A DNA stretch of 64,000 nt from Haliea alexandrii (GTDB lineage: Bacteria; Pseudomonadota; Gammaproteobacteria; Pseudomonadales; Halieaceae): contig NZ_RFLW01000004.1 of the NCBI RefSeq assembly GCF_003719295.1, positions 186,001 through 250,000 of the forward strand, written 5' to 3'. The notes under the pieces were generated by a model. That model was not told the DNA's origin. It saw only the letters and a program-made list of their open reading frames with translations, and did no database searches. How positions within the stretch are numbered: position 1 is the stretch's first letter; every line of letters begins with the position of its first letter. This document shows positions 1-28,368 of the stretch, one piece after another. The translations under genes and the position numbers were made by a program.

Positions 1-2949
1 GCGACAGCCGAAAAAGTGCTAACGGCTCCCGTCGAGGAGTGGCTTGGCTGGCAGCAGGAGGCGGCGAACAGTTTTTTTAAACGTCTCTTTCTGAAGAGCA
101 AGGTCAACAAAGCTGCCCGCACCGCCGGATTTGAAAAGTTTAGTGATCTCATTGTCCTTGAGGATTTGAAAGCGGCCCGCGATACACTAGAAAAAGTACA
201 GAATGGCACGAAAGAGTTCGAAAAGGCCGGCATCTGGAGTGGCTGGGACACGGATCCTACCTTCCTTAATGAACGTTTCGTGTCCGGCGAGAAGGCCAGG
301 CAGTGCATCGGCGAAGCGCTGAATCTTGTCGACGACGCCGTCGACCTAATGGTTGCCCTGAAGAAGCACCTCGTTGATGCGCGTGATTTCCTCGACACTT
401 CGAGTGTGAACTCTAAAACCACACAGTACGAGCAGGCAAAGGAGGCCTTCGACGATCTGATGTCCCGACTCGCAGACTTCGGAGTTGTTTTCCCGGAAGA
501 GATGACACTCGCCGAAATGAATGATGCCTTGCTGCAGGTATCCAACAACGCTCAGAAGCTCAAAGCCTGGGTGAATTGGATGAGCGCCAAACGAGAAGCT
601 TCAAAGCTGAAACTTGACGCCATGGCAGATGGTCTCGAATCAGGTCAGATTCCGCTGCATGAGGCCGATCAGCAGCTGCTCACGGCATTTTGCGCTTGGC
701 TTGCGCCTCGCCTGATCGACGCCGACGAACACCTGGTCAACTTTGACGCCATCAGTCATGAGAATCTTATCGACACCTTCCGCAAGATGGACAGCGACCT
801 GGCGGACATCACGAGCGACTACATAAGAATGCAGGCAGCCAAGCAGGCGCCAGACATCAATAGCAAAGAGAATGCTCCTTACTTCAGCACTTTGTCACGG
901 GAGCTGCAGAAGAAGACGCGTCACAAGCCCATTCGTGCGCTCTTTGAGGACATGGGAGATAGAGTCTTGGACCTGTGCCCCGTCATGATGATGAGTCCAC
1001 TCTCCGTCGCACAGTTTCTGCCTAGCACGTTCTCGTCCTTCGATCTTGTGGTCTTCGACGAGGCGAGCCAGATCACGCCATGGGATGCAGTAGGCGCTAT
1101 CGCCCGTGGCAAGAATGTTATTGTCGTTGGCGACCCGAAGCAGATGCCGCCGACGAACTTCTTCAACAAGACAGTTGATGTCGAAAATCCTGACGAGGAC
1201 GATCTCGAGTCGATCCTAGACCAAGCGCTTGCCGCTCGGCTCCCGCACTTACGGCTTCTGGGGCACTACCGCAGCCGCCATGAGACGCTGATCGCGTTCT
1301 CGAATGGTCGCTACTACGAGAACTCGCTCATAACGTACCCCTCGGCTTCTACAAAGGCCTCCATGGTGACCTTTCACCGTGTGGATGGGGTCTACGCCAA
1401 GGGTAGGGGGCGCAACAATCCGATTGAAGCCAAGGCAGTCGCATCCGAGGTCGTACGGCGGCTTCTACATCCCGAGCTCAGCAAGTTCAGTATAGGCGTC
1501 GTGACCCTCAACTCAGAGCAGCAGCGTACCGTAGAGGACTTCCTTGATGAAGCGCGTCGGAAGTATCCAGAGATTGAACAGTTCTTCCGCGGCACCGATG
1601 ACTATGATCCCGTCTTTGTAAAAAACTTGGAGTCTGTCCAGGGTGATGAGCGCGATGTGATCATGTTGAGTGTGGGGTACGGACCGATTTCGCCTGGCGG
1701 CCGTACCATGAGCATGAACTTTGGCCCCCTGAACAAAGCGGGCGGAGAGCGTCGATTAAACGTCGCAATTACCCGGGCAACGACTGAAGTGTGTGTATTT
1801 GCGAGCCTTGATCACAGCATGATCGATATGAGTCGCACATCGGCCATCGCTGTAGAGCACCTGAAACACTATCTCGAGTACGCTGAGCATGGTCCGATGG
1901 TCCTGCCGGAGCAGGCAACGGCTGAATACGGTGTTGATCAGTTTGACAGCGACTTTGAGGAGGCCGTCGCTTGGTCGTTGCGTGATCTCGGCTGGAAAGT
2001 GCAAACGCAGGTGGGCGTGAGCAAGTTCCGCGTAGACCTCGGAATCATTCATCCGGAATACCCGGGTGTTTATCTTGCGGGTATCGAATGCGATGGTGCC
2101 ACCTATCACGGTTCTCCTTCGGCCCGGGACCGAGATCGCGTGCGTCACTCGGTGCTCGAGAATTTGGGCTGGACACTCGTGCGCATCTGGTCGACTGAGT
2201 ACTTCACTGATCCGGATGAAGTAATCCGGCGCGTACATAACAAGCTTGAAGAACTTCTTGCGAAGGATCGAACCAAGCGATCAGATGTCGACATAATCAA
2301 TCAGAGTGAAGACGAGTTCAAGATTGATTGGGAGAGTGATGAGGAAGTCGAGCATGGCGACGCAGCCGCGACCGCGTCAAGTGACGACTATGAGCAGTCT
2401 TCAAGCCAGCATGATGAGGTCGACGATGGTGACAAGTCGTCGGGCAGTTTCGCTCATGCCGAGCGTACCGACTATGATGCGCGCAAGTACTACGATTCAT
2501 CGGAGCGAATGAACATCAACAGCTTGGCAAAAGAGATCTTGGCTGAGCAACCAGGTATTACACTAAAGGATCTTTCTTTGCAAGTTGCTGCGGCATACGG
2601 CCGAAATAAGACCAGTGCAAAGCAGAGAGATCACTTGCTTAACATAATCGAAAACTGGGCAGGTAAGTCAGGTCCATTCAATGGCCAGTGGGTCATGTGG
2701 CCTTCTCCTGGAGACATACGAGAAGAAGTTCCCTGGCGTGGGGTTGATGCTTTTGGTGGCGATAGAAAGTGGAATGAAATTGCTTATCCAGAAGCGCTCG
2801 GTCTTGCCCGCGAAGCTCTTGAGAAGGCTCCTCACGACCCAGTGGATTACATATGTAACGTATTCAAACTGCAGCGTCGCTTTGAATCAACGTTGAAGGA
2901 ATTCCGGCAATGGGTCAGTGCAGTCGCAGCCAAACTGCATTCGGAATAA
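1..2949 (+). CDS. SF1 helicase with Vsr-like nuclease and DUF3320-type C-terminus (5' end outside window)
   Basis: The frame is open from the first base, so this is the C-terminal ~980 residues of a larger protein. Counting from the GTG at 16: Walker B (FDEASQ) near residue 347, motif III (GDPKQMPP) near 372, GHYRSR near 416, motif V (ESVQGDERD) near 538 and motif VI (LNVAITRA) near 581, all typical of UvrD/AAA_12-type SF1 helicases. Walker A is not seen and should lie upstream. Residues ~645-738 form a Vsr/DUF559-like endonuclease (FRVDLG, IECDGATYH, LGWTLVRIWSTEYF). A low-complexity acidic linker follows, then a DUF3320-like end (EEVPWRGVDAFGG). Families with this layout (DUF4011/helicase/Vsr/DUF3320) are frequent in defence islands, and similar single-gene anti-phage systems have been reported (I recall the name Hhe, unverified). 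It converges on a type I R-M operon, which fits a defence role by inference. Confidence 0.88.
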   Translation, partial: ATAEKVLTAPVEEWLGWQQEAANSFFKRLFLKSKVNKAARTAGFEKFSDLIVLEDLKAARDTLEKVQNGTKEFEKAGIWSGWDTDPTFLNERFVSGEKARQCIGEALNLVDDAVDLMVALKKHLVDARDFLDTSSVNSKTTQYEQAKEAFDDLMSRLADFGVVFPEEMTLAEMNDALLQVSNNAQKLKAWVNWMSAKREASKLKLDAMADGLESGQIPLHEADQQLLTAFCAWLAPRLIDADEHLVNFDAISHENLIDTFRKMDSDLADITSDYIRMQAAKQAPDINSKENAPYFSTLSRELQKKTRHKPIRALFEDMGDRVLDLCPVMMMSPLSVAQFLPSTFSSFDLVVFDEASQITPWDAVGAIARGKNVIVVGDPKQMPPTNFFNKTVDVENPDEDDLESILDQALAARLPHLRLLGHYRSRHETLIAFSNGRYYENSLITYPSASTKASMVTFHRVDGVYAKGRGRNNPIEAKAVASEVVRRLLHPELSKFSIGVVTLNSEQQRTVEDFLDEARRKYPEIEQFFRGTDDYDPVFVKNLESVQGDERDVIMLSVGYGPISPGGRTMSMNFGPLNKAGGERRLNVAITRATTEVCVFASLDHSMIDMSRTSAIAVEHLKHYLEYAEHGPMVLPEQATAEYGVDQFDSDFEEAVAWSLRDLGWKVQTQVGVSKFRVDLGIIHPEYPGVYLAGIECDGATYHGSPSARDRDRVRHSVLENLGWTLVRIWSTEYFTDPDEVIRRVHNKLEELLAKDRTKRSDVDIINQSEDEFKIDWESDEEVEHGDAAATASSDDYEQSSSQHDEVDDGDKSSGSFAHAERTDYDARKYYDSSERMNINSLAKEILAEQPGITLKDLSLQVAAAYGRNKTSAKQRDHLLNIIENWAGKSGPFNGQWVMWPSPGDIREEVPWRGVDAFGGDRKWNEIAYPEALGLAREALEKAPHDPVDYICNVFKLQRRFESTLKEFRQWVSAVAAKLHSE

Positions 2950-3177
2950 CTGTAGGCGAATTTCGAGTCCTGCGTGCTCAGCCGTATTAGAGCGGTCCGT
3001 GGAAAAGGGGGTAGAGCCCCTTTCATTAGCTTGATGTTCACGGATGAGCTTCATCTCCTTCGCAAGTCGTTCGGATTTAGAACAATTCGCCGACTCCCAG
3101 AGTGTCTGCTTACAGAGGGCGTAATCTTCACGGACAAATTCAGGGAGCTTGGCAAAGTCTTCATTGACTAGGTGCAT
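2887..3177 (-). CDS. Small uncharacterised ORF at the end of the hsd operon (96 aa)
   Basis: I do not recognise this protein. Its first ~50 residues (MHLVNEDFAKLPEF..., ending near LAKEMKLIREHQANE) have a protein-like charged/hydrophobic pattern. It then runs through the 3003-3024 hairpin and into the 3' end of the helicase gene, where the translation looks non-natural. The start codon overlaps, in another frame, the end of the 30-aa frame at 3168-3260 that begins on the hsdR stop codon. The two pieces together look like one ~80-residue protein broken by a frameshift, or two translationally coupled mini-genes. Confidence 0.35.
   Translation of the reverse strand: MHLVNEDFAKLPEFVREDYALCKQTLWESANCSKSERLAKEMKLIREHQANERGSTPFSTDRSNTAEHAGLEIRLQLFRMQFGCDCTDPLPEFLQR
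3003..3024. terminator. Hairpin between convergent operons
   Basis: AAAGGGG (3004-3010) pairs with CCCCTTT (3017-3023) around a 6-base loop. On the minus strand the stem is followed by TTTT, so it could end the hsd operon; on the plus strand it could also serve the helicase gene. The stem is short (7 bp), so strength is uncertain. Confidence 0.5.
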
Positions 3178-3260
3178 TCCCTGACTGCCGTAATAGCGTA
3201 GCTACCGTTGCTGTCCTTGCCAATGCAGACCCTGCCGTAGCTCCTGTAGACTTTCTTCAT
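3168..3260 (-). CDS. 30-aa ORF overlapping the hsdR stop codon
   Basis: The ATG at 3260 shares an ATGA overlap with the hsdR stop, the same coupling used elsewhere in this operon. The product begins MKKVYRSYGRVCIGKDSNG and stops at TAG (3168-3170). The next frame (ATG at 3177) opens just before that stop. Conservation is unknown; the coupling is the only evidence that it is translated. Confidence 0.35.
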   Translation of the reverse strand: MKKVYRSYGRVCIGKDSNGSYAITAVRECT

Positions 3261-6200
3261 CGACTAGCCGGTTGATCAGCTGCGCCGGGCTCCAACAATC
3301 GACCACGCCCCGCCAGCATCTCCAGAATCAACAAAGCAAACTGCCTACTCTTCTCCTCACTGTCCAGGATAGGCTCAGATAGCTTGCCATTGTCCCCCAG
3401 AGCATCCAGCACCGCATCGGTCACCCGCTTCGGGAACAGACCGTGCATGATCTTCTCCGTTGAGTGGTGCCGGATCTGAGCCATGACTTCTTCATCACGC
3501 TCGATCCTGTCGGCGATGCCGTTTGCAAAGTGCAGCTTGTCGTCATCACCCACCTCGGCACCGAAGAGGTCATTGAGCCTGCCGATGATCTCTGACAGTC
3601 GGGCCTTCTCGGGGTCGTGTGGTTTGCCAGTGCCCACATCCTGAATCGACTTGAGGCCGTGCTCTGTCTCTTCATCAGCAAGCCTTAACTGCTGCTCCGC
3701 GCGCTTGGTGAGGCGGTAGTGGGTCAGTGCCAGCTCAGCCACATCCACCGGCTCGCCTTCAACCCTGTCTACCCGCAGCAGTGGGTGCAGGTGTTTGGCG
3801 TAGACACAAAGCTGCTCCAGCTCCCTGTCGTCATAGTGGACGATCTGCGACAGGAACTCATAGGCCCGGACATAGCTCTGCAGGTTCTTCCGGAACAGGT
3901 CCAGGGTGTCCTTGGTTTGGCCTGCCTCTTCCAAGGCACGTTCTGCCTGCTTGAGCCCCTCCCGGTCTCCGCTTGCCTCTGCGGCATTGCGAGCCTGGGT
4001 CCAGTGCTGCATGTCATCGAGTGCCGCCCGGTACCGGACACTGTAGCGCTCGACAGCGGGTTGGCAGTGAAAACTGAGCCTGGATGCCGGTGCTCTGGGA
4101 TCAAAGAACGCTGACGCGAAACCAGTAACCTCCTCCCCGTGGTAGATCCCCTCCTGGTCCAGGCTGCGTTGCAAATCATAGACCACCTGGGTATCCGACA
4201 CGTCCTCAAGCTCCGCCTTGCCATAGTAGGGAACGAAGGCTTCGAGAATGTCCTGGGGATCATTGAAGAAGTCGAGGATGAAGGTCTCCTTGCCCGGGAA
4301 GATCCTGTTGAGCCGGGACAATGTCTGCACACAGTCCACGCCCTGCAGCTTCTTGTCCACGTACATGGCGCACAGCTTGGGCTGATCAAAGCCGGTCTGG
4401 TACTTGTTGGCGGCAATCATCACGTTGTAGTCAGCCGTGTCGAAGGCGTCCGCCAGGTCTCTACCTTTCAAGCCAGGATTGAGAAGGCTACTGGTTTCCG
4501 ACACTTCCTCCGGGGTCACCTCATCAGCCGGCACAGTCCCAGAGAATGCCACCAGGGGATGCACGTCCCTGTAGCCTTTGGCTTCGACATACTGGCGCAT
4601 GGCCAGGGCATAGCGCACAGCTTCCTGGCGGCTGCCGGTGACCACCATGGCTTTGGCCTGGCCATCTAGCAGGTGCCGGACATGCTCCCGGAAATGCTCC
4701 ACGATGATCTCCACCCGCTGACTGATGTTGTAGGGGTGCAGACGTACCCAGCGAGCCAGTGCCGTCGACGCCTTGCGGGACTCTACCTCCGTGTCGTCAC
4801 CGTGGGGGTGCGACAACTTCCAGGCCGTGTTGTAGGTGATGTACCGCTTCAGGACATCGAGGATGAACCTTTCTTCTATGGCTTGACGCATGGAGTAGAG
4901 ATGGAAAGGCTCCGGCAAGTTCTCCTTGCCCGCAGGCAAGTTCGGGTCCGGTGGACGACCAAACAGCTCCAGGGTCTTGGCCTTGGGGGTAGCGGTAAAC
5001 GCATAGTAGCTGATGCTTTCACTTGGCTTACGGGCCTGCACCGCGGCATCCAGTAGGTCCTCAGCGCTGATCTCGTCTCCCTCGGGCCTGTCAGCACCCA
5101 GGATTGCCTTTAGCTTGGTGGCAGAGGAACCAGTCTGTGAGGAGTGCGCCTCATCGGCAATCACGGCGTAGCGGCCACTGGCCAGCTCCGGATACTTGTC
5201 CAGAGCATCGAACAGGGCCGGGAAGGTCTGGATGGTGACGATGATGATGCGGGTCTGTTTGGCCAGAGCCTCGGCGAGTTGCTCCGACTTGCTCTGGTTG
5301 CCGATGTCCCGGGTAATGGGCCTGACTACACCCTGGGCATGTTCGAACTGATAGATGGTGTTCTGCAGCTGCGTGTCCAGCACCGTGCGGTCGGTGACAA
5401 CGATGACAGAGTTGAACAGCTTGCTGGCACCATTGGCGTCATACAAGGAAGCCAACTGATGAGCCAGCCAAGCAATTGAGTTGGACTTGCCGGAACCAGC
5501 ACTGTGTTGCACCAGGTACTTGTGCCCGGCACCCTCCTCCCGAGTTGCCTCAATCAGCCGGTTCACTACCTGCCACTGGTGGTAGCGAGGAAAGATCAGG
5601 GCCTCCTTGATGTCCTTGGTGCCGTCGAAGTGTTGGACCTCCTGCCGGTCCAGGTGCAGGAAGCGGCCCAGGATAGCCAGCCAGGCATCCTTCTGGAAAA
5701 CCTCCTGCCAGAGGTAAGCCGTGGCGTAGGTGTCACCATCCGGTGGTGCAGGGTTGCCTGCTCCACCTTCCTCAGTCCCCCGGTTGAAGGGCAGGAAGTA
5801 CGTCGCCTTGCCATCCAGCTTGGTAGTCATGGCCACCTCGGCCTGACTCACGGCGAAGTGGACCAGGGCTCCGCGCTTGAAGGTCAGTAGTGGTTCTGGC
5901 TTCCGGGTCACCGGGTCCTTCACTGGCCGGTCATTCTGGTACTGGCGCTTGGCATTCTCCACTGACTGCTTGAACTGGCTTTTGAGTTCCAGGGTGGCCG
6001 TGGGGATCCCGTTCACGAACAGCACCAGGTCCAGGCGCGGGTTGTACTCCCCCTCCCGAGCATGAGGTGAGTAGGAGACTTCCTGCACCACCCGCAGGCG
6101 ATTGGCGGCATACCGGGCCTGGGCTTCTGGATTCATGCCGTGGTCGGGGCGGAAGCTGCAGAGGTCGATCTTGACCCCTGGAACCTTGAAACCATGACGA

Positions 6201-6457
6201 AGCACTTCGAGAGTCCCGTGCCGATCCAGCTCTCTCACCACGGCCTTCACCAAGGCACCGGCAGGATCCTGGGGATTGTTCTTGCAGTACTTCTCCCAGC
6301 GGTCCGGGTAGGCTTCCTGGACAAAGGCCAGCAGGTCCTCGGTGTACAGAGCAGTGGCACGGTCGTAGCCTGAGGCAGGTCCCGTCACCCAGCCTGCTGA
6401 AGCCACCATCTGGTTGATGATGTCCTGCTGGAATTGTAGCTCCCGGCTGTCTGCCAC
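3257..6457 (-). CDS. hsdR: Type I restriction enzyme, HsdR (R) subunit
   Basis: This is the 1066-aa motor and nuclease subunit of a type I restriction-modification complex. It translocates DNA with ATP and cuts DNA unmodified by HsdMS. Visible features: an N-terminal HsdR nuclease domain with the D...ExK core (RLDLVLF...ATLELKSQ, ~142-162), Walker A (SAGSGKSNSIAW, ~320), the DEAH box (ADEAHSSQTG, ~434), the SF2 FTATPKAK motif (~486) and a C-terminal R-subunit helical region. Length is normal for the family. The start is GTG at 6457, 10 bp after the PLD-like gene. All main motifs look intact, so the gene is probably functional. Confidence 0.95.
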   Translation of the reverse strand: MADSRELQFQQDIINQMVASAGWVTGPASGYDRATALYTEDLLAFVQEAYPDRWEKYCKNNPQDPAGALVKAVVRELDRHGTLEVLRHGFKVPGVKIDLCSFRPDHGMNPEAQARYAANRLRVVQEVSYSPHAREGEYNPRLDLVLFVNGIPTATLELKSQFKQSVENAKRQYQNDRPVKDPVTRKPEPLLTFKRGALVHFAVSQAEVAMTTKLDGKATYFLPFNRGTEEGGAGNPAPPDGDTYATAYLWQEVFQKDAWLAILGRFLHLDRQEVQHFDGTKDIKEALIFPRYHQWQVVNRLIEATREEGAGHKYLVQHSAGSGKSNSIAWLAHQLASLYDANGASKLFNSVIVVTDRTVLDTQLQNTIYQFEHAQGVVRPITRDIGNQSKSEQLAEALAKQTRIIIVTIQTFPALFDALDKYPELASGRYAVIADEAHSSQTGSSATKLKAILGADRPEGDEISAEDLLDAAVQARKPSESISYYAFTATPKAKTLELFGRPPDPNLPAGKENLPEPFHLYSMRQAIEERFILDVLKRYITYNTAWKLSHPHGDDTEVESRKASTALARWVRLHPYNISQRVEIIVEHFREHVRHLLDGQAKAMVVTGSRQEAVRYALAMRQYVEAKGYRDVHPLVAFSGTVPADEVTPEEVSETSSLLNPGLKGRDLADAFDTADYNVMIAANKYQTGFDQPKLCAMYVDKKLQGVDCVQTLSRLNRIFPGKETFILDFFNDPQDILEAFVPYYGKAELEDVSDTQVVYDLQRSLDQEGIYHGEEVTGFASAFFDPRAPASRLSFHCQPAVERYSVRYRAALDDMQHWTQARNAAEASGDREGLKQAERALEEAGQTKDTLDLFRKNLQSYVRAYEFLSQIVHYDDRELEQLCVYAKHLHPLLRVDRVEGEPVDVAELALTHYRLTKRAEQQLRLADEETEHGLKSIQDVGTGKPHDPEKARLSEIIGRLNDLFGAEVGDDDKLHFANGIADRIERDEEVMAQIRHHSTEKIMHGLFPKRVTDAVLDALGDNGKLSEPILDSEEKSRQFALLILEMLAGRGRLLEPGAADQPASR

Positions 6458-6467
6458 TGCTGGCCCC

Positions 6468-7256
6468 TTATATTTTCAGGTTGCCTTCGATGAGCGGCCT
6501 ACATTCAGCGAATGCCTGCCGTGCGACGTTCGGATCATCCACGACAAAGCTCTTCTCCCGGTTCATGAATGCACGGTTGGAAAGCCAGTTGTGGCTCCCA
6601 CAGACAACTTCCTCGCAATCTCGGATCAGAATTTTTTGGTGGTTGTTAAACTCTCCAACCTTCAAAACTCCTTCCATCCCTCTAGCAGCGTCAGCGACAG
6701 CGCGTAGTGAGTTCATGGCCTGATGACTTTTAGGAGAGGCTTCATGTTGGCCGCCTGAGTTTTCGTAGCCAAATCCAAGGTAGACATTCACTCCTCGGGA
6801 CAGGGCATCTCTGATAGCAACACAGAAGGTCTCATCGACTACGCTTGACGACAACCATCCAGACAAAATGAGCAATGACTTCTTCGACTCTTTGATGGCT
6901 CTCAAAAGGTACTCGTAGTGCTCGGAATCCTGCAGAGGCGTCACTTTCCCGTGGCTCTCAGCCGATCTCGCAAGATCACGCACTTGCCCCGAGAAACCCG
7001 CCGTCGCAGCTTCAAAGCCTGCGAGTTTTTCTCTGGCCTGGGCCAGGTCAGTGGAGGACGTTTTCAGTCTACCGACTACGAAAAACGTGCCCCAGGTGGA
7101 AGCTAACTGCACCATGATCAGGGGTTCATAGTTAAGCATTGCAAGGGTCCAGACTGTCCAGCCAGCGCCTACCCATAGCGCCGCCTGTCGAGAAACTAAA
7201 AGGTAAGCGCCTGCCATTGATCCAATCACAAGGATCTGCCAATACATCACTTGCAT
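6468..7256 (-). CDS. Membrane-anchored phospholipase D-like (HKD) protein in the hsd operon
   Basis: The 262-aa protein starts with two hydrophobic segments (about residues 4-30 and 33-60), then a short coiled-coil-like stretch and a PLD-like domain. One HKD motif is clear near residues 205-213 (HQKILIRD, H-x-K-x4-D), followed by CGSHNWLS. A single HKD suggests a dimeric nuclease or phosphodiesterase of the Nuc type, tethered to the inner membrane. It lies between the GIY-YIG gene (23 bp) and hsdR (10 bp), so it is co-transcribed with the R-M genes. Its role in restriction is inference; PLD-family nucleases occur in other defence systems. Confidence 0.8.
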   Translation of the reverse strand: MQVMYWQILVIGSMAGAYLLVSRQAALWVGAGWTVWTLAMLNYEPLIMVQLASTWGTFFVVGRLKTSSTDLAQAREKLAGFEAATAGFSGQVRDLARSAESHGKVTPLQDSEHYEYLLRAIKESKKSLLILSGWLSSSVVDETFCVAIRDALSRGVNVYLGFGYENSGGQHEASPKSHQAMNSLRAVADAARGMEGVLKVGEFNNHQKILIRDCEEVVCGSHNWLSNRAFMNREKSFVVDDPNVARQAFAECRPLIEGNLKI

Positions 7257-7279
7257 CAGTACTTCTCCTACTTATTTTT

Positions 7280-8194
7280 CTAAGAGGCTCCGAGAGAGCT
7301 TACCTGCTGATCCTGCCACTCTCCATAGGTCTGCCCACTACCTTCTACCTTCCATTGTGTCCGACCATTGGCGGCTCTCCCCGAGACCACAGCCGCTGCT
7401 GCACTTGGGCTGGAGAACATCTGGTCAGCGGTAAACTCCAGGGAGCCAGATGAATGCGGGGCAAGTACACCGTCTTGGATCAACTGCTCATAGAGGTCTC
7501 TGTAGGTGTGACTGTTCGGGGACCAGCTGGCTCTGGCGATGCTCCCGGCCAGGACGAAGAACTCGCCATCTATCTCCTGGGCCCTGGCTGTGATCTTGTG
7601 TTTGGGTATCTCCAGCACGAATACAGGTGACTCCAAAGCAGTGCCAGCTACGGCAGTTGTGACTGGCTTGCTGGTATCCCGCAGGAAATCGAAGCCCAGG
7701 ACAGGCAACACGGTCCGGATCTGCTCAGCAAAGAAAGCCATGTCGGCAAGGTCCGACTCCGGCAGGCTGCTATAGTCATGCGCGGTACCATTGACCAGCC
7801 TGCAGCGACCGACCTGTCCAGCCTTGGAGATGAGCACACTCTCCAGGTGCTTTGCATGAGCCTTGGTGAGGTTCTGGTCCTTACTGGTAATCAGGCAGAC
7901 CTTCTCCCAGAAGTCCTTGCCCCCTTGATCTTCTGGCTTGTTGTGCTGCTTCAGCCGCTTGCCGACATCATCAGACTCCCCAATGTAAACCAAGGGTCTG
8001 AAGCTGTTCTCCGGGTCAGGGCCTACCAGGAAGTAGATCCCGGTGCGCCCCACTTCAGGACGCTGTACAAGCTCGCTGAGCTTGCTGCGGGGGCCAGTGA
8101 GGACATGGCCTGTCCAGTTCATGATCTCGGCGGTGAGGAGGCCGTTGGGGGTGCCATCGACCAGGAACAGGCGGATGCTGCGGCCCTGGCTCAT
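7280..8194 (-). CDS. GIY-YIG nuclease-family protein with DUF4357 C-terminus
   Basis: In this 304-aa protein the GIY-YIG core is visible at residues ~52-75 (GIYFLVG...LVYIGES), a following arginine region (VGKRLKQHN) and the probable catalytic glutamate in AKHLES (~118). The C-terminus (SGRAANGRTQWKVEG...TYGEWQ) matches the DUF4357 pattern. Such GIY-YIG/DUF4357 proteins are often encoded beside type I R-M genes; their function is not established. The start overlaps the hsdS stop by 4 bp, so it is part of the same operon and probably translationally coupled. Confidence 0.88.
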   Translation of the reverse strand: MSQGRSIRLFLVDGTPNGLLTAEIMNWTGHVLTGPRSKLSELVQRPEVGRTGIYFLVGPDPENSFRPLVYIGESDDVGKRLKQHNKPEDQGGKDFWEKVCLITSKDQNLTKAHAKHLESVLISKAGQVGRCRLVNGTAHDYSSLPESDLADMAFFAEQIRTVLPVLGFDFLRDTSKPVTTAVAGTALESPVFVLEIPKHKITARAQEIDGEFFVLAGSIARASWSPNSHTYRDLYEQLIQDGVLAPHSSGSLEFTADQMFSSPSAAAAVVSGRAANGRTQWKVEGSGQTYGEWQDQQVSSLGAS

Positions 8195-9615
8195 GACGCC
8201 ATCTCCAGGCCAGCCTGGCGAACTTCTTCATCAAAGGCGCTCTCGTCAGCCGGTGGCTTCCAGTTACGGACATCGATCTTGCCGGTGACGGCGGCGGAGA
8301 TGAGGGCGGATCGGCGTTCAACAAGCAATTTGATGTTGAGGCCAGCCTCAGTTATCAGTTGATCGAAACTTTCAGACTGGCTTTCCACCCACCTGACGAC
8401 TGAGTCTTGCTCAGAGGGTGGAGGTATTGGAAGCCAAATGTCGCTCAGGGTCGCAATGTTTATGATGTCCATCGTTCCACCACGACTAAACAACGAAAAT
8501 TGTTCAAAGACGATATAGCTCTTGAGTGTAACTTCGATAAACTGAGGGATTGTATGGTCTAGGACTCGGACCCGAATAAGGCGTGGATTAATAATCCCAG
8601 GTTCTACATCTGCGGGGACAATTGCAATTTTCCCAAAGGTGCCCACACAGCTGATCAGAATATCTTGGGGCTCGACCGAGTACTGCTGAAGCTCGCGGTA
8701 GTACTCGTCACTTATGAAGTAGTCACCCACCTTGAAATCCCCGGGTATCACCTGTTCCTGCCCATACACACGATACCCGGACGAGGTGTACATATCCTTG
8801 GTCAGCGCTGAGCCAAATGGTCCGGCCTTGATGCTTCGCGCAATGTGCTTAAAACGAACTACCTCCCAATGCTCCGGCACCTCCCCCAACCACTCCACCC
8901 CCGAGTCCTTCATCGGCACCGAGGGATCCAGTCCCTTGGTCACGGCATGGGAAATCACCGCCTGGCGCTTCTCCTTCAGCAGTTCTATCAGACGCTGCTG
9001 CTGCTGGATCAGGGCATCGATCTTTGCGGTTTCGTGGTCGAGGAAGCGGGCTATTTGGTTTTGCTCAGTTGCTGGAGGGAGCCAGATACGAAGCGACTTC
9101 AAACTGCCTAGGTTCATATTTGGCTGTGCGACACTGTCAGATGACAAGATAACGTGAGCGAACATTGGCTCGGAGGCAAAAACATAAAAAAGGAAGTCGG
9201 CGACAACAGCGCCAGTACTTGGTCTAAACCTGAGTTGATTTGGAGAAATGAGTGCTTTTGGTACAGCTTCGGGGACTATGCCAACCTTACCTACCGTGCC
9301 CCGAGCAGTGAAAATAACGTCACCCGGAATAGCTTTACAGCGTTTTAGGCTCTCAAATTTTTCGTCGTTGACGTAAACATAATCCTTGTCGTAAAACTTG
9401 CTGTTTGCATGTAGCGCCGTATTTACTCCTCGAATGACTGGAACACCGGCATCAACGTAATCATCAGAGCCTAAAGATGATCCGAACGGGCCCGAAACAA
9501 AATCTTCCCCACTACTTTCCAAATACGCCATTCTAACGATGGACCAATGGCGTGGTATTCGGCCTAGACCTGCCACATCGACCGGGGCGTAATGATCATA
9601 GACTGGGAAACTCAC
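8191..9615 (-). CDS. hsdS: Type I R-M specificity subunit HsdS
   Basis: This 474-aa protein has two target recognition domains, each opening with the usual P-x-H-W element ([10 protein letters not shown] near residue 19 and [10 protein letters not shown] near 240) and each followed by a conserved helical spacer ([40 protein letters not shown]). It sets the bipartite recognition sequence for both methylation and cleavage. It overlaps hsdM by 4 bp upstream and the GIY-YIG gene by 4 bp downstream. The recognition sequence cannot be read from the protein alone. Confidence 0.95.
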
Positions 9616-11627
9616 GCCGACAGCTCCTCGATCATAGCCTTGATCCGGTCCGTGCAGGCCTTGAGGTCAGCATCGATCTCCTCCAGTGGCCGGGGCGGCA
9701 CGAACGTGTAGAAGTGCCGGTTGAAGGGAATCTCGAAACCAACAATACCAACCTCACTATCCAGGGGATCCGTCTTGCTCTCATCGATCCAGGCATCCGG
9801 GACGTGGGGCTTTACCTCACGGTCGAAGTACTCGTAGATGGATTCACCCAGGGGCACGTTCTCGTTGTCACGCAGGCTGGTGTCTGGCTCAGGGTTGCCG
9901 TCCTTTTCGGTACAGATGGCGGCCTCAGGATCACGCTCCGCCAGGGCATTCATGACCGACTTCAGCTGTGGTGCGCGCAGCTTGAACCTCAAAGGCTTGA
10001 GAGCGGCCTTCAGGGCCTTGCTGAATACAGCACGGTCTGTGTACACCACCTCTGCATCAAGACTGCCACAGGCAGCCTCCAGGGCCTGTAGCTGGCCACC
10101 CTCCAGCTTCTGTAGTGGCTTCTCCTCTGCCAGCCTGGCAAGCCGTTCAGGGCTGGCCTGGAAGTTAAGACGCAGGGGGCGCTCCACGGTGATGCGCCGG
10201 TACCCGAAGGCATCCACCGGGAAGATCTTGCTCTCCTCGGTTTCCTCGAAGGCCCCATAGGCACGGACGATGGCATCACTGTTGGCCTCATCCACATACT
10301 GGCGCTTCGACCCCAGGGACTTCCTCATCTTACTGTAGCGGCTGGTGGCGTTGATTAGCTGTACCTTGCCCCTTCTCTCTACTGGCTTGTTGTTGGACAG
10401 TATCCAGATGTAGGTGGCAATACCGGTGTTGTAGAACATGTCCGTGGGCAGGGCCACAATGGCCTCAACAAAGTCTCTCTGCAGCAGGTAGCGGCGGATC
10501 TCCGATTCCCCACTACCGGCACCGCCGGTAAACAGAGGGGAACCATTCAAGATGATGCCTATCCGGGAACCTCCCTGCTTGGGATCCTGCATCTTGCTGA
10601 CCAGGTGCAACAGGAACAACAGGGAGCCATCAGAGACCCGGGGCAAACCAGGACCAAAACGGCCATCGAAGCCGCGCTGCTCGTGTTCCTTTACCACGTC
10701 CTTCTGGACTTTCTTCCACTCCACCCCAAACGGGGGGTTGGCCAGCATGAAGTCGGCCCGCAGGGTTGGCAGCTGGTCATCAGAGAGGGTGTTACCCAGC
10801 TTGATGTTGTCCACGCCCTGTCCCTTGATCAACATGTCCGCCTTGCAGATGGCGTAGGACTCCGGGTTGAGCTCCTGGCCGTGCAGAGACACAGTAACCC
10901 CGCTACTCACCTTCTGGATGTACTCGTCACCCTCCGACAAGAAGCCCCCGGTACCTGCTGTTGGGTCATAGATGGTGACAATGCTGGAGGGCTTGAGCTT
11001 GTGTTCCTGCCCGGTCAAAACCAAGGAAGTCGTTAAGTGCACAATGTCCCTGGGAGTGAAGTGCTCCCCTGCAGTCTCGTTGGAGCTCTCGGCAAACTTC
11101 CGGATCAGCTCCTCGAAGATGATGCCCATGCCGAAGTTGGTGATGCGGGCCGGGTTCAGGTCGATACTGGCGAAGCGTTGCACCACCTGGTACAGGAGGT
11201 TAGCTCCGGATAACTGCTGGACGAAGTCCTCAAAGTGGAAGTGCTCGAAGATCTCCCGGGCCGCCTGGCTGAAGGACTGGACATAGCTCATCAGGTCATC
11301 AGCTGTCTGGGTATCGGACAGAGTGGACAGGGTAAGCGGTGACGCATTGAAGAAGTCCTTGCCTGCAGCACGCAGCAGAAGGCGCTCTCTCACGGCCTCA
11401 GTCTTGTCGGCACTGGTCTTGGCTTGCGCTAGGACCTTGTGCCTGGTCGGCTCCAGGACGCACTCCAGGCGCCGCAGGAGGGTAAAAGGCAGAATGACCC
11501 GCCCATACTGCGACTGCTTGAAATCACCCCGCAGGAGGTCTGCCACGGACCAGATGAAGGCTGCGGTCTGAGAATGGTTCTCGGTGTTCAAGTCGGCTGT
11601 CCTTGTCTGGCTTGGAGGGTCAACCAA
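9612..11627 (-). CDS. hsdM: Type I R-M N6-adenine DNA methyltransferase HsdM
   Basis: This 671-aa modification subunit transfers a methyl group from S-adenosylmethionine to adenine N6. The SAM-binding motif ([13 protein letters not shown]) lies near residue 222 and the catalytic NPPF (ANPPFGVEW) near 297. An HsdM N-terminal helical domain precedes the fold. It is longer than the classic ~520-aa HsdM because of a C-terminal extension of ~150 residues, as in some long HsdM proteins. It is the first gene of the minus-strand operon hsdM-hsdS-GIY-YIG-PLD-hsdR. Confidence 0.95.
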
Positions 11628-11696
11628 GGATCATACCCAAGGAGGGTTGGACTGTCGCGCACGTGGTGCTGAAGCCAGAACCTGAAGGGTAGGCAG

Positions 11697-11734
11697 CCTT
11701 GCCCGGGCGCAGCGGAGCGGGAGCCCGGGCAGGG
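11697..11734. repeat. REP-like imperfect palindrome
   Basis: CCTTGCCCGGGC (11697-11708) pairs with GCCCGGGCAGGG (11723-11734), 11 of 12 positions, around a 14-base purine-rich loop. It lies upstream of hsdM between genes, as REP-type elements do. Only one copy is evident here; whether it is dispersed in the genome cannot be seen. Confidence 0.45.
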
Positions 11735-11879
11735 ATGCCCCTACGCTACAAGGAGGGAAGAAATCTGTATTGCGTCACGCGCTTGGCGTCCGCCCACGTA
11801 CCGCTCCGCTCAACCTGGACGGACGCCACTGCGGAGAAGTGAGGAACTGTGGAGGCGAGTTGTCCGGATGACAGCCAGG

Positions 11880-12008
11880 CTAGATGGAGATGGAAACCAG
11901 GTGCTTCAGCAAGCTAAATAGTATGTAAACCCCGCCTGCAATCATGGCGGTCTCGTAGCACTTGATGGAGAACCGAACGGCGGGGTGGGTGATGATTTTC
12001 ATGAACAT
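11880..12008 (-). CDS. Possible 42-aa membrane miniprotein
   Basis: An ATG at 12008 opens a 42-codon frame ending at TAG 11880-11882. The product has a basic N-terminus (MFMKIITHPAVRFSIKCYE) and a hydrophobic segment (TAMIAGGVYILFSLLKHLV) with the look of a single transmembrane helix. No strong ribosome binding site is visible. It sits alone between hsdM and the att site and is unrecognised. Confidence 0.35.
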   Translation of the reverse strand: MFMKIITHPAVRFSIKCYETAMIAGGVYILFSLLKHLVSISI

Positions 12009-12203
12009 GGTTTGGCGTCGCCTTCTTGAGTTGGGGCGCCAGCTACCATACTCAAAGTGCTGAGCGTTTTCTGGGATGATTGCCTGTTCAAGTGATGGGA
12101 GAACCTGCCGCCAGTCTGGCTACGCACTGCTGATGCTGGTACGCTTCGTTCAGCTGTGGCGAGACCAGCTCAAAGCTCAATTGAACCCGAGCAAGAAAGA
12201 CAA

Positions 12204-12226
12204 TTGACGGTATATTTGGCGGTATA
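12204..12226. repeat. Two adjacent 11-bp direct repeats TTGRCGGTATA
   Basis: TTGACGGTATA (12204-12214) and TTGGCGGTATA (12216-12226) are separated by one base and lie ~55 bp inside the putative att site. Such tandem motifs near att sites can be arm-type binding sites of an integrase or excisionase; here that is inference from position. Confidence 0.4.
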
Positions 12227-12280
12227 CCTCGCAGAAGCCCATGAAATAGCTCCAATTAAAACATAGAGTTATGCTTAACA

Positions 12281-12303
12281 TTCAACTCCCGCCGCCTCCA
12301 CCA
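12281..12303 (+). mobile_element. att site: 3' end of a tmRNA (ssrA) gene
   Basis: The stretch contains ACTCCCGCCGCCTCCACCA, the T-arm 3' strand, acceptor stem and CCA end typical of tmRNA, preceded by TTCA of the T-loop. No tmRNA 5' part (GGGGxxGATTCTGGATTCGAC-like) is present upstream, so this is only the 3' fragment left at one end of an element integrated into ssrA. The orientation places the intact gene to the left, outside the window, making 1-12.3 kb the right part of the island. It is followed by a matching terminator. Confidence 0.7.
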
Positions 12304-12347
12304 ATCACATTTCCCGCAGCATCCAAGCAAGTCCAAAGAAGTCCACG

Positions 12348-12381
12348 AAAGCCGCGCCCCACAAGGGTTTGCGGCTTTTTT
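12348..12381 (+). terminator. Rho-independent terminator after the tmRNA fragment
   Basis: AAAGCCGC (12348-12355) pairs with GCGGCTTT (12371-12378), with a T run to 12381. It is probably the original ssrA terminator, now separated from the intact gene by the island. Confidence 0.75.
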
Positions 12382-12803
12382 ATTATCCATCGCGGTCCAT
12401 CAGCGTGCTGCAAAATCCTGCGCATTTAGGAACACCGGCACAGAACACCCTGAGGCGGTGTCCCTAAAATGCCAAAAGGGATGTGGAAATGGCCCGTACC
12501 AGTGACAATAACTGCTCGGGCGCCAGGGATTCTGGCCAATAGCTGCCGGGCCGGAAAGACATATCGATTGTGTTCACGGTCAGTGCTCCGCTAAAAGTTC
12601 ATCGGGAGCATCAAGGGGACATACGGAACCTGTTTGGTTGCCTAATGGCCACATCTCCTTACGGAAACCACCTTGCCCAGGTGGGCAGGTTGGCAGGGCA
12701 TAAAGCCCTTCTTGATGCTGTGGGCGCAGTATAGTCAGAAACTGCATGTACTGTTTTCAAACGGGTGCGAACGGGCAGCCCATGTCGGGCTGGCCTACGC
12801 AAC
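12382..12803. other. Intergenic, no gene seen
   Basis: About 420 bp between the att region and the Tat-exported protein gene. Short frames here have no convincing start signals or protein character. A weak inverted repeat (ACACCG / CGGTGT around 12433-12462) is the only structure noted. Confidence 0.4.
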
Positions 12804-13493
12804 TCAGCCACGTGATTTTTTGAAAAAGGCCTCTATTTCCTCCTTCGACATCATTTCAACTATTTCCCATTTTTCGTATTCCGGAGTGACGCCATGGCAT
12901 AAAACACTGTCATAGATCGGGTCGTCAACTGCACATTCATTCCACTCACCCGTGGCGAGATCCCAGTCAGCCCAAAGAAGGTCAAAATCGTCTCGGCGAT
13001 CTCTAATCTGAATCTCATCGGTTGCGAGCCATCTAGCAATATCTCTGGTTAAGGTGGCCTTCACAAATCGAGGTATGTCCGCTGTCCAAAAACCATCCAC
13101 AGGATAGGTCTCCACTAGTTCAGGCCATAACCAATAGTCTGGCAGAACAGGTTTCTCTTGTGGAAAACCCGGTGTTCTATAGATGTTTGGTATACGGTGA
13201 TGAGCTCCTGAGATCCAATTAGCCATCGGGTGACTGTGTATTTGATCAAATTCCCCGCAGACCTCGTACTCCCCCGTGGAAAGATCCAAGTCAACCCATA
13301 TAAAGTGACCCGCAAGATTAAACCGATATTCCAAATCCAATGGGTGGATCACAGCCAAGACGCGAAGAAGCGATGTGCCTTTCCTCCTCGGCGTTTGTTG
13401 GGTGTTCTCCTGCAATGATGCGTTAGCGCCCTGAACAACAGCGAGACCCGTTAAGGCTCCCGTCGATAACTTCATGAATTCTCTGCGTTTCAT
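12804..13493 (-). CDS. Tat-exported protein of unknown function
   Basis: The ~229-aa product begins MKRREFMKLSTGALTGLAVV, a twin-arginine signal (RR followed by a hydrophobic stretch and an Ala-containing cleavage region), so export in folded form is likely. The rest is rich in Trp, Asp and Tyr with repeated elements such as WVDLDLSTGEYEVC and WADWDLATGEWNEC. These two copies of a 'W-DLxTGExxxC' unit suggest an internal duplication. No known family is recognised. The ATG at 13493 is preferred over the in-frame ATG at 13508 because it gives a canonical Tat n-region and sits 2 bases after the stop of the upstream small frame. Confidence 0.75.
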   Translation of the reverse strand: MKRREFMKLSTGALTGLAVVQGANASLQENTQQTPRRKGTSLLRVLAVIHPLDLEYRFNLAGHFIWVDLDLSTGEYEVCGEFDQIHSHPMANWISGAHHRIPNIYRTPGFPQEKPVLPDYWLWPELVETYPVDGFWTADIPRFVKATLTRDIARWLATDEIQIRDRRDDFDLLWADWDLATGEWNECAVDDPIYDSVLCHGVTPEYEKWEIVEMMSKEEIEAFFKKSRG

Positions 13494-21932: not shown

Positions 21933-22015
21933 CGAAGCAGGGAGCATCAATACTGAATATCAACTGCGCAGCCGGGCTTTCACAACCCAGCGGCTAACGG
22001 CACGGAGCTCTAGCT

Positions 22016-22387
22016 ATGAAGTACCTGATAACCGTTTTTTTGCTGTGCGCCAGCACTGCCTCACTGGGGAACAACCTGGAGGCGCTGGTCGATGAGCTGC
22101 AGAGCCGTGAACTTTCGCTGGAAACCATTGCGGCACTGGTGCAGCTCGACAACCCCGGGTTGAAGGTTGGCTACGGCCTCTGTGAAGCGGCTGGGCAGCC
22201 TCTTTGCAAACCCGACGGCTCACTAGGCTATGGTCTGTGTGAAGTGGCAGACGGCACCCTGTGCAAGAAAAATGGCAGCCTGGGTTACGGCCTTTGCATG
22301 CTGGCAGGCAGCAAAAACTGCCGCGAGAACGGCAGCCTGGGCTACGGGTTGTGCGTTATGGCGGGGGAGAAGAACTGCAAGCCGTGA
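22016..22387 (+). CDS. Secreted cysteine-rich GYGLC tandem-repeat protein
   Basis: The 123-aa protein has a signal peptide (MKYLITVFLLCASTASLGN) and a short helical region (LEALVDELQSRELSLETIAALVQ), then four tandem ~19-residue repeats of the form GYGLCxxAxxxxCxxxGSL (last copy truncated at GEKNCKP). Each repeat has two Cys, eight in all, consistent with disulphide formation in the periplasm or outside the cell. Family unrecognised. The start has an ACGGAG ribosome binding site. Confidence 0.78.
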   Translation: MKYLITVFLLCASTASLGNNLEALVDELQSRELSLETIAALVQLDNPGLKVGYGLCEAAGQPLCKPDGSLGYGLCEVADGTLCKKNGSLGYGLCMLAGSKNCRENGSLGYGLCVMAGEKNCKP

Positions 22388-22419
22388 AGCCTGGTGGCAG
22401 CGTAATCCAGAGAGGTTGG

Positions 22420-22803
22420 CTACGGATCGGTGTCGGGCGCCAGCAATAAAAACAGCATAAAAAACCCACAAACCGTACCGTAGCGCGTCGCCCCGGCTAT
22501 CGGCCCGGCACCTGCCTGACTTTGCCAGAGCATGAAATAGCCCTCGCCAATGACGACGAACAGTCCAAACCAGACCAGCATGCCCACGGCACACGCGGCC
22601 ACCGCCGGACGTGTGGCATCGGCAAAAACCTCAGGCGCCGCCAAGCGGCTTCTCAGCATCCTGTACACGCCGGCCGATGCAAGCGCCGCAACCGCCGCCT
22701 CACCGGCAAGAATCATAGCCAGCACAGCAACGTGGAGAACGTTTGACGCAATCGGGGGACCATAGAGCGCATAGTAAGGTTGATCCCCCGCGGCGGTGAC
22801 CAC
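22420..22803 (-). CDS. DUF2165-like small membrane protein, N-terminally truncated
   Basis: The C-terminal ~100 residues resemble DUF2165 integral membrane proteins (three hydrophobic segments; GMLVWFGLFVVIGEGYFMLWQSQ is the characteristic end). The first transmembrane helix expected in the family is missing: the frame starts at GTG 22803 and a TAG stop lies just upstream. In another frame directly upstream (22804-22957) is a second copy of the same motif (FGPPISLHVLRAAVLALLL versus YGPPIASNVLHVAVLAMIL), suggesting a decayed tandem duplication. It may be a pseudogene. Confidence 0.55.
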   Translation of the reverse strand: MVTAAGDQPYYALYGPPIASNVLHVAVLAMILAGEAAVAALASAGVYRMLRSRLAAPEVFADATRPAVAACAVGMLVWFGLFVVIGEGYFMLWQSQAGAGPIAGATRYGTVCGFFMLFLLLAPDTDP

Positions 22804-23003
22804 GGCGACAATTACAACCTAGCCGGCAACTTGAAAACACACCAGTCCGGGTGCCATCCACCCTGGCCCATCGACATAACAGCAAAGCCAGGACAGCAGC
22901 ACGGAGAACATGCAACGAGATCGGCGGGCCAAAAGGCACGCAGTAAGGGTAACTCATCGCAGAGGCGGCACACGGCAGTTTATATTCCGCCGCTCGCCCA
23001 TGA
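22804..23003. other. Intergenic with decayed DUF2165-like fragment
   Basis: This holds the minus-strand frame beginning at 22957 (MSYPYCVPFGPPISLHVLRA) whose start resembles the start of the downstream DUF2165-like gene and then degenerates. No promoter or terminator for the antiporter operon could be identified. Confidence 0.35.
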
Positions 23004-24383
23004 TCAAGCCGACATGACCGCCGTTACAGTGGGCAAATACCAGAACACTACGGTACTGCAGAGCACCGCGAGCATCCAACCCAGCCAGCGCGTCGCACGG
23101 ATATTGCCTCGCTCCAGCTGCTGCCACAACAGCCAGCCGTAGCGAACAAGGAGCACCAGCGTCGCCAGCGTAGTCGCCTGCAACAACAGCGGCAGCAGCC
23201 CATACAGCGGCAAGCCCGGCTGCCCCAGCAAGGCATCCTTCATCACGCCCTTCGCGAATTGGCCGCTGGTTAACGGCACTCCCAACAAGGACAGGCCCGG
23301 CAGGGCAAGCAGCAACCACACCACCCATCTCAGAAGACGGTGAGCGGGAAGTACCAGGCCCACTGCCAGAAACAGGCAACCCTTGGCCAAACCGTGATGC
23401 AGAACAAACACGCCAATCACCGGTAGCAGCCCCGATACCTGCCCTGGCACCGCCAGCGTTGCGCCTGCCAGCACCGTCAGCAATCCCATCTGGCTGATAC
23501 TGGACCAGGCCAGCACGGTCTTGGGATCCCGCTGCCTTACACCGAACACGGCCGCCCCGAGAGCGCCAGCAAAGCCCATCAGCATCAGAAATTGCCCCCA
23601 GGCAAACCAGCCGGCCTCACCGACAGGCAAGGTCAGCAGCCAACCCAGTAGCCCCGCCTTGACCATCGTCCCGCTGAGTACGGCGCTTGCCGGTGTTGGC
23701 GCCACCGGATGTGCCAGAGGCAGCCAGAAGTGCAGCAGCGGCAAGCCCGCCTTGACCCCGAAACCAACGATGAACAGCGCCGTCATCAGCTCACTGTTGG
23801 CGCTGCCGGCGATGCCGACGTTCAGATCCTTCAGTAACAAACTGTCCCCGGTGCTCGCCGCCAGCAGGAATCCAGCCAGCATGGCCATTTCACCGCAGAG
23901 CGCCATCACCAGATAGACGCGCCCGGCAAAACGCGCACGGCCGCTGCCCACATGAACAATCAGGCCATAGGCGGCAAAGGTCATCAAGGTGAAGAAGGCA
24001 TAGAAGCTGGCGATGTCTGCGGCCAGCACAAGGCCGAGGTTGCCGGAGAGGGTCAGCCCCCAGAACACGCAAAACCTGCGCACATGTTGCGCACCCAGAT
24101 AGCCGACCGCGTACAACCCCGCCACACCCCACAGCAGCGCCGTCAACAACAGGAAGCTGCGCCGCAGCTCATCCAACATCCAGGTACTGCCCAGCAACAG
24201 CCAAGGCAATTCCAGTGTCCAGGGCGCGGCCGACTGGAAGGCCAGTAACAGCGCCGGCACGGGCAGCAGCGGCAGGGCACCGCGCAGGGCGCGGTGCCAG
24301 CCACGGCGTGTCGCCAGCAGTGGATACAGCAGTGGCAGCAGCACACTGACGGCAACCAACACGAGCGGTGGAGATCCGTTCAC
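23004..24383 (-). CDS. NuoL/MrpD-like proton-conducting membrane subunit (third of operon)
   Basis: This is a ~459-aa polytopic protein of the NADH-quinone oxidoreductase/Mrp antiporter family. The conserved core GFGVKAGLPLLHFWLPLAHPVAPTPASAVLSGTMVKAG carries the family's lysine and histidine proton-path residues. It is more divergent than the two upstream homologues. GTG at 24383 is preferred over GTG 24419 because it overlaps the preceding stop as GTGA, the coupling used throughout this operon. It is the last gene of the operon. Confidence 0.85.
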   Translation of the reverse strand: MNGSPPLVLVAVSVLLPLLYPLLATRRGWHRALRGALPLLPVPALLLAFQSAAPWTLELPWLLLGSTWMLDELRRSFLLLTALLWGVAGLYAVGYLGAQHVRRFCVFWGLTLSGNLGLVLAADIASFYAFFTLMTFAAYGLIVHVGSGRARFAGRVYLVMALCGEMAMLAGFLLAASTGDSLLLKDLNVGIAGSANSELMTALFIVGFGVKAGLPLLHFWLPLAHPVAPTPASAVLSGTMVKAGLLGWLLTLPVGEAGWFAWGQFLMLMGFAGALGAAVFGVRQRDPKTVLAWSSISQMGLLTVLAGATLAVPGQVSGLLPVIGVFVLHHGLAKGCLFLAVGLVLPAHRLLRWVVWLLLALPGLSLLGVPLTSGQFAKGVMKDALLGQPGLPLYGLLPLLLQATTLATLVLLVRYGWLLWQQLERGNIRATRWLGWMLAVLCSTVVFWYLPTVTAVMSA

Positions 24384-27348: not shown

Positions 27349-27668
27349 GATTCCCCTCCGCCGTCGCCCGCGTTATTTCCCGTATCCAGCGAGGTGCGCC
27401 CGGTCAGGTGAAAATAACGACGAATCAAGACGATGGCCAGGGCAGTGGCGGCAATCGCGACGACAATTCCCGTCAGCACCAGTGCCTGGGGCACGGGGTC
27501 CGGACCATCGCCGTGCTGCGCCAGGCCGACCAGAACCAGAAAAACCCCCGAGCCAAGCAGATTGAAGGCCAGCAAGCGCCGCAGCAGGTGGTTCAGCAGC
27601 AGAAAACCCGCAAGGCCGATGCCACACAAGGCAACACCGGCAAGGGCATACAGCAGATTGAGGCTCAC
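27345..27668 (-). CDS. mnhC: Mrp antiporter subunit C (NuoK-like)
   Basis: A 107-aa protein with three membrane helices of the NuoK/MnhC family (GFLLLNHLLRRLLAFNLLGSGVFLVLVG...VPQALVLTGIVVAIAATALAIVLIRR). The PQALVLTGIVVAIAxTA element is the MnhC signature. It overlaps neighbours on both sides by 4 bp. Confidence 0.9.
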   Translation of the reverse strand: MSLNLLYALAGVALCGIGLAGFLLLNHLLRRLLAFNLLGSGVFLVLVGLAQHGDGPDPVPQALVLTGIVVAIAATALAIVLIRRYFHLTGRTSLDTGNNAGDGGGES

Positions 27669-28366: not shown

Positions 28367-28368
28367 AG

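Follow-up and report, generated by a model that had tools for sequence, protein, structure and literature searches.

The type I restriction-modification (R-M) operon described here lies at one end of a 64,000-nt stretch of the Haliea alexandrii genome (contig NZ_RFLW01000004.1, positions 186,001 to 250,000; the window). Two additional genes stand between its hsdS and hsdR: one for a GIY-YIG/DUF4357 nuclease-like protein (GIY) and one for a phospholipase D (PLD)-type protein with a single HKD motif. Coordinates are window positions and L numbers are compared loci, L002 and L185 being from the same genome and covering the upstream part of the island on which the operon resides.

Organization of the restriction operon

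9612..11627, minus strand: hsdM, type I modification subunit, 671 aa, TTG start as called (open reading frame (ORF) list, Pfam, PADLOC PDLC03029 at 1.1e-280, motifs)
8191..9615, minus strand: hsdS, type I specificity subunit, 474 aa (ORF list, Pfam, PADLOC); 4-bp overlap with hsdM
7280..8194, minus strand: GIY-YIG/DUF4357 nuclease-like gene, 304 aa (PDC-S14, 4.5e-133), a cargo gene that recurs in the hsdS-hsdR slot; 4-bp overlap with hsdS
6468..7256, minus strand: PLD gene, single HKD, 262 aa, variable cargo item (Pfam, AlphaFold2 (AF2) model, Foldseek)
3257..6457, minus strand: hsdR, type I restriction subunit, 1066 aa (ORF list, Pfam, NCBIfam, motifs)
11630..11658, minus strand: sigma-70-like site directly upstream of hsdM, the only one in 6300-12900, where 3.3 are expected by chance

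All five frames are uninterrupted from start to stop. The ORF list and Pfam bear out the single minus-strand array with 4-bp overlaps or short gaps reported in a preliminary description of this DNA, the gaps being 23 nt between the GIY and PLD genes and 10 nt between the PLD gene and hsdR. This spacing suggests that hsdM-hsdS-GIY-PLD-hsdR would be a single transcription unit; a promoter and terminator scan of 6300-12900 gave nothing beyond chance level.

HsdM matches the families N6_Mtase and HsdM_N, HsdS matches Methylase_S, and HsdR matches HSDR_N and SWI2_SNF2. The motifs DPTAGTGGF and NPPF are found in HsdM, and a DEAH box and an ExK-type match in HsdR; the strict Walker A pattern had no match in HsdR, though AGSGKS is visible there by eye. 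The NCBIfam matches of HsdM (TIGR00497, 87.5 bits vs a cut-off of 242.75) and HsdR (TIGR00348, 148.4 vs 284.55 bits) fall below cut-offs that define subfamilies. With hsdM, hsdS and hsdR all open, co-oriented and above the Pfam cut-offs, this is, as judged from the sequence, a complete type I R-M operon, carried on an island that is probably integrated at a tmRNA gene.

The hsdS-hsdR junction as a variable cargo slot

The survey of related operons was anchored on HsdM (E up to 1e-150), thereby avoiding bias from the two odd genes. Fifty of the 76 distinct hsdM matches, the window included, were mapped, chosen by rank and contig room; nine were already known via the GIY search. Six of the 50 loci were left out because M, S or R was not called (L141, L145, L147, L151, L162, L163), which gives 44 complete operons including the window, with genes called by our own ORF script.

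A gap of more than 300 nt separates hsdS from hsdR in 30 of the 44 operons and hsdM from hsdS in eight, five operons having both (paired exact test, p = 2.7e-5, kinship uncorrected). When the ten operons of the GIY clade are removed the counts are 20 and 6 of 34 (p = 0.0026, likewise uncorrected for kinship). Neither gap exceeds 300 nt in eleven operons, for example L137, whose HsdM is 79% identical and whose hsdS-hsdR gap is 77 nt.

A subset of the cargo genes, 33 distinct ones, was scanned with Pfam. By our own count, with families assigned by Pfam or PADLOC and intact GIY genes by tblastn, 22 of the 29 filled hsdS-hsdR gaps outside the window contain a match to a defence, toxin-antitoxin or nuclease family or an intact GIY gene. 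Eight of these gaps hold GIY (L038-L045), some together with an AbiEi/AbiEii or HTH gene. The other 14 hold GmrSD (L139, L168, L169, L175), DUF1016/YhcG (L164, L165, L172, that of L165 assigned by its likeness to that of L164), SLFN_AlbA_2 (L157, L173), an OLD-like AAA protein (L160), FRG with PDC-M15A (L143), PIN (L153), PD-Lambda-5_A (L161) and PDC-M59A (L170). Among the remaining seven filled gaps are degraded GIY genes (L058, L138), GNAT (L138), DUF3800 (L149), HTH (L154) and genes without a family match (L171 and one of two in L176); the cargo of L159 and the rest of L058 and L176 lie outside the scanned subset.

The hsdS-hsdR junction is thus a variable cargo slot and a frequent exchange site in this type I family, and the hsdM-hsdS junction is a second, less used insertion site. 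Since the hsdS-hsdR junction is exchanged so often, genes found in it, the PLD family included, are good candidates for new defence or toxin genes. Three cargo proteins without a Pfam match are such candidates: L042:10488-11909 (473 aa, with a weak PDC-S11 match), L041:10451-11026 (191 aa) and L171:10802-11626 (274 aa). Abi_2 genes occur between hsdM and hsdS at L039:6988-7962 and L142:12902-13873, and a similar-looking gene was seen by eye in L148. At L151, where no window-type hsdR was found, two genes after hsdS (L151:7907-9617) look DarT- and DarG-like by eye, as in an island of enteropathogenic Escherichia coli (EPEC) considered below.

The closest sibling of the window operon is L038, with identities of 91% for HsdM, 85% for HsdR and 83-84% for GIY. 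It keeps the 4-bp hsdS/GIY overlap, and where the window has the PLD gene it carries a DUF1508 gene in the opposite orientation. DNA homology to L038 runs to within 8 nt of the GIY gene's end and restarts inside the PLD gene, 14 nt short of its end and 25 nt ahead of hsdR. The replaced stretch is approximate, because its breakpoints were taken from the ends of local blastn alignments:

6483..7287, minus strand: exchanged stretch without DNA homology to L038

As homology breaks near both gene ends, the PLD gene looks like a cassette exchanged since the two operons parted. The GC content at third codon positions is 0.57 in the PLD gene, 0.55 in hsdS, 0.71 in the GIY gene and 0.74-0.76 in hsdR and hsdM.

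The GIY and PLD proteins and their relatives

The GIY protein matches the profile of the PADLOC candidate PDC-S14 over its full length (residues 1-299), with no difference seen. The PDC candidates come from a "guilt-by-embedding" study cited in PMC12988326. Pfam gives DUF4357 (1.7e-18), a marginal GIY-YIG match (1.4e-4, 22.5 bits vs a cut-off of 22.6) and a sub-threshold RAMA match (5.5e-4), and no match was obtained against the sequences of solved structures. Residues Y54, Y70, G72, R80 and E118, which we take to be the GIY-YIG catalytic residues, are invariant in all 12 aligned GIY proteins. DUF4357 is also present in GmrSD homologues, according to parts of PMC4619093, and a role of the GIY/DUF4357 protein in sensing modified DNA may be proposed.

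Intact GIY genes lie between hsdS and hsdR in eight of the other 43 complete operons, and degraded ones in two. At the order level GIY matches (E up to 1e-20) were found in 39 of 390 genomes, its own included, and the neighbours of 38 of the 40 matches outside the window were inspected. GIY adjoins window-type hsd genes at nine of these 38 loci; it stands beside hsd fragments at L047, and at several more loci distant hsd-like matches occur somewhere in the stretch. Ten of the 38 plasmid records with GIY, picked for spread, were opened. GIY lies between the S and R genes in four, Rhodococcus p52, Rhodococcus GA1 (with insertion sequence copies after hsdS), Ketogulonicigenium (R gene annotated as a DEAD/DEAH helicase) and Roseomonas, so that the slot is occupied by GIY on actinobacterial and alphaproteobacterial plasmids as well. 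It directly follows hsdS in one from A. baumannii, in the order R-M-S-GIY. It lies elsewhere in three, has hsd genes nearby but apart in one, and the Azospirillum record is unannotated. Among nine operons (36 non-independent pairs) pairwise identity of GIY tracks that of HsdM less closely (rho 0.59) than the identity of HsdR tracks that of HsdM (rho 0.95); between L039 and L043 the identities are 55% for HsdM, 47% for HsdR and 75% for GIY. GIY is a mobile but recurrent companion of the hsdS-hsdR slot.

The PLD protein has a Pfam PLDc_2 match (2.3e-10). An alignment-based AF2 model, with a mean predicted local distance difference test (pLDDT) score of 82.7, places three helices at residues 2-21, 23-40 and 44-84 ahead of a PLD domain at about 105-257; the single-sequence model reached a pLDDT of 41.7. 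The N-terminal helices are probably membrane-anchoring, to judge from the model. The HKD motif is intact: H206, K208, D213, G220, S221, N223 and E234 are invariant in all seven aligned sequences, and the HxK(x4)D and GSxN motifs together with a Nuc-like predicted fold are those of a single-HKD PLD nuclease. Foldseek retrieved Nuc (1byr, target-normalized template modelling (TM) score 0.74, root-mean-square deviation (rmsd) 2.9) and NucT (6ehi, 0.66). The window protein has one HKD motif as these have, and differs in the three helices (about 84 residues) ahead of its domain. It scores 23.2 bits against the NCBIfam NucT equivalog cut-off of 297, and 19 bits against that of DISARM DrmC (133); no other drm genes are among the PADLOC and NCBIfam matches listed. 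Among the Pfam, NCBIfam and PADLOC matches seen, none is to a model dedicated to this PLD family.

For the PLD protein, one full-length and two partial matches were found among 97 genomes, its own included, and the latter (G026, G090) were dropped, since they lie within proteins of 487 and 499 aa that look cardiolipin synthase-like by eye. Two full-length relatives occur among 369 genomes of the class. A scan of genome contigs with the single PLD sequence gave no match; an alignment-based scan gave eight loci: five new full-length ones (L177, L178, L180, L181, L182), L179, which is the known locus L056, and the Bradyrhizobium loci L183 and L184 described below. Counting L057 as well, seven full-length relatives are known besides the window protein. 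A search of 50,697 phage records gave no match to the protein; viral contigs yielded 13 pattern matches, with no confirmed relative among them, and 72,556 plasmids two partial matches (31-33%), so the collections searched do not support a phage- or plasmid-borne gene.

At none of the seven other full-length PLD loci did the DNA compared match the HsdM, HsdS or HsdR of the window (at L057 only matches above 60 bits were counted). HNH_2 and AlbA_2 genes neighbour the relative at L177, and SRAP and a helicase fragment that at L178; umuC-like genes (L181, L182) and an SRAP-like gene (L182) were seen by eye. In two Bradyrhizobium stretches (L183/L184, about 5.3-10.5 kb) a PLD-domain match lies downstream of a kinase-helicase gene, an arrangement that looks by eye like type I Mokosh; they have only the PLD domain in common with the window protein.

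No gene labelled PLD is present in the other 43 complete operons, so that a dedicated type I subunit was rejected and the preliminary description was right that this protein is not a standard component. It had further taken rarity of homologues near hsd genes as an argument against a tie to restriction. Such rarity is found for PLD, whereas GIY, with its eight intact and two degraded copies in 43 operons and half of the opened plasmids, behaves otherwise. The two genes are therefore to be set apart: GIY recurs and merits a test for coupling to restriction, and PLD does not recur.

Comparison with known systems and the surrounding island

The gene prrC is situated between hsdS and hsdR. In EcoprrI, too, a type I operon houses an additional nuclease gene, as described in PMC3874165; PrrC differs in being an anticodon nuclease that PMC3874168 calls invariably tied to hsd, whereas the window's PLD protein is of a different fold, has N-terminal helices and lacks a consistent hsd link. 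The EPEC island RptR-R-M-DarTG2-M48 also carries defence genes between hsdS and hsdR, and the authors of its description (PMC12255303) call this site a "potential recombination hotspot". The EPEC genes form a toxin-antitoxin pair, and a dedicated repressor gene lies upstream; in the window the cargo is GIY-YIG and PLD. The kind of arrangement is thus already known from prrC, DarTG2 and PDC genes embedded in defence operons, and the locus adds the stand-alone PLD family as a new cargo item. No title among the literature matches listed concerned a PLD-bearing, membrane-anchored type I restriction operon.

Single-HKD PLD proteins such as Nuc and NucT work as dimers. Because one spot holds many different defence and toxin genes in related operons, the PLD gene looks like exchangeable cargo and not like a part of the enzyme. 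We regard it as probable that the operon carries exchangeable defence cargo and that PLD acts alone, gaining expression and mobility without contacting HsdR, HsdM or HsdS. The GIY gene comes first, in a slot where it recurs across phyla, and PLD sits behind it, where close siblings differ. The PLD protein may reside in the inner membrane and pair so that two HKD motifs meet, as in Nuc/NucT. Once infection is sensed it would cut nucleic acid, which may be the DNA of an incoming phage or nucleic acid of the host, independently of the restriction complex, the operon providing mainly expression and mobility. Of the two options in the preliminary description, that of separate modules is favoured, in the form of cargo, while modification of restriction by PLD finds no support in co-occurrence.

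Several observations pull the other way. PLD is found in one hsd operon, so its status as cargo depends on a single insertion together with how the slot behaves, and the tight spacing and operon position would also fit a co-adapted component. The Foldseek hits that ranked highest (TrmBL2) gave poor superpositions (rmsd about 15), and the same fold includes phospholipases, both of which bear on the predicted nuclease activity; the peak mean hydropathy of 1.41 (19-residue windows, placed at every third residue) is modest for a transmembrane segment. Three of the seven contigs compared measure 3.0-6.4 kb and the Hsd proteins of the window served as queries for neighbours, so that hsd genes lying farther off or dissimilar in sequence may have escaped notice, and since the family was sought by patterns and in genome samples, members were surely missed. 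Finally, a solitary HSDR_N-domain gene (L057:8211-9296) lies 0.3 kb downstream of the PLD relative at L057, the one hint of a link between the family and restriction.

According to a guard model, PLD and/or GIY would be silenced by the type I complex and freed by a phage anti-restriction protein, leading to abortive infection through action at the membrane or on nucleic acid. If this were true of PLD, the R-M enzyme would hold it silent and the phage's own anti-restriction would unleash it at the membrane. The model is conceivable because PrrC works that way, being encoded in a type IC operon, sequestered, and freed on T4 infection, as given in excerpts of PMC3874165 and PMC12707154, and the presence of GIY in the slot of distant operons makes selection for a link plausible for that gene. 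A consistent hsd link of the PrrC type is nevertheless lacking, as PLD stands without an hsd operon at seven other loci (0/7) and GIY is often away from hsd genes (9/38 order-level loci and 5/10 plasmids adjoin them) and follows HsdM in identity less closely than HsdR does. We therefore hold the guard model to be rather unlikely. The bolder proposal, that the PLD family is an unrecognised anti-phage effector that becomes a guard once in a type I operon, with GIY as a second, modification-sensing nuclease, seems to us quite doubtful. It is improbable, too, that PLD is a phospholipase-type enzyme acting on membrane lipids as a membrane-damaging toxin. Its fold, its N-terminal helices and its structural likeness to viral, bacterial and human phospholipases D would suit such a role, but it has one HKD motif only and its closest compact matches are Nuc and NucT.

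The last explanation involves the gene that faces the operon:

1..2949, plus strand: 3' part of a ProA-type superfamily 1 (SF1) helicase-nuclease gene, convergent with the operon (whole gene, 1984 aa, extending past the window edge, at L185:2995-8949)

The SF1 helicase with a nuclease noted in the preliminary description is indeed there, with AAA_11/AAA_12 and REase_MTES_1575 nuclease domains in Pfam. The whole protein exceeds the NCBI ProA equivalog cut-off (NF058533, 1823.8 vs 1500 bits) with no difference seen, and is accordingly assigned by sequence to this named anti-phage family, as a neighbour outside the operon; a literature search under the phrase "anti-phage protein ProA" found nothing. 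In Mokosh a helicase protein is paired or fused with a PLD protein, and because of this combination PLD and the ProA helicase might be read as a split Mokosh-like system. The PLD domain is related to MkoB (1.7e-23) and MkoC (3.6e-18) by profile, the whole helicase matches MkoA (2.5e-28), and the Bradyrhizobium loci show a comparable neighbourhood by eye. A PLD-like domain is listed for Mokosh I and II and Azaca in parts of PMC10952713; a literature search on Mokosh with phospholipase D and transmembrane found nothing. However, the MkoB match extends at best over 121 of the 610 profile positions, and the window protein is short and stand-alone, has its own N-terminal helices and is without a paired helicase or kinase gene. 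It belongs to the hsd operon on the opposite strand, the helicase is of ProA type with a nuclease domain of its own, and no helicase match occurs at any of the seven other full-length PLD loci. The pairing was rejected on these grounds, and a split Mokosh is very improbable.

The island is delimited by a tmRNA gene upstream of the window, with an integrase gene beside it (L002:6515-7792; integrase-domain model 3.2e-76, 256.6 bits, below the cut-off of 434), and by a repeat:

12281..12304, plus strand: exact 24-bp copy of the 3' end of the tmRNA (ssrA), probably the right attachment site (left copy at L002:6341-6364)

A further 25-bp match follows the right repeat at 12320-12344. The integrase gene and the repeat likely mark an integrated island of about 24.0 kb (G000:C7:174341-198304, that is L002:6341 to window position 12304 by our own arithmetic), of which the operon region would then be the right part; its end lies some 0.3 kb past the interval covered by the preliminary description (1-12008). 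Upstream of ProA the island has a second GIY-YIG-like gene (227 aa, L185:1619-2302), which scores 22.9 bits against a group I intron endonuclease model with a cut-off of 56.05. Elsewhere in the window, the 8 kb at positions 22001-30000 combine high GC with a strong AT skew (0.28-0.38) and may belong to a single, very large repetitive gene.

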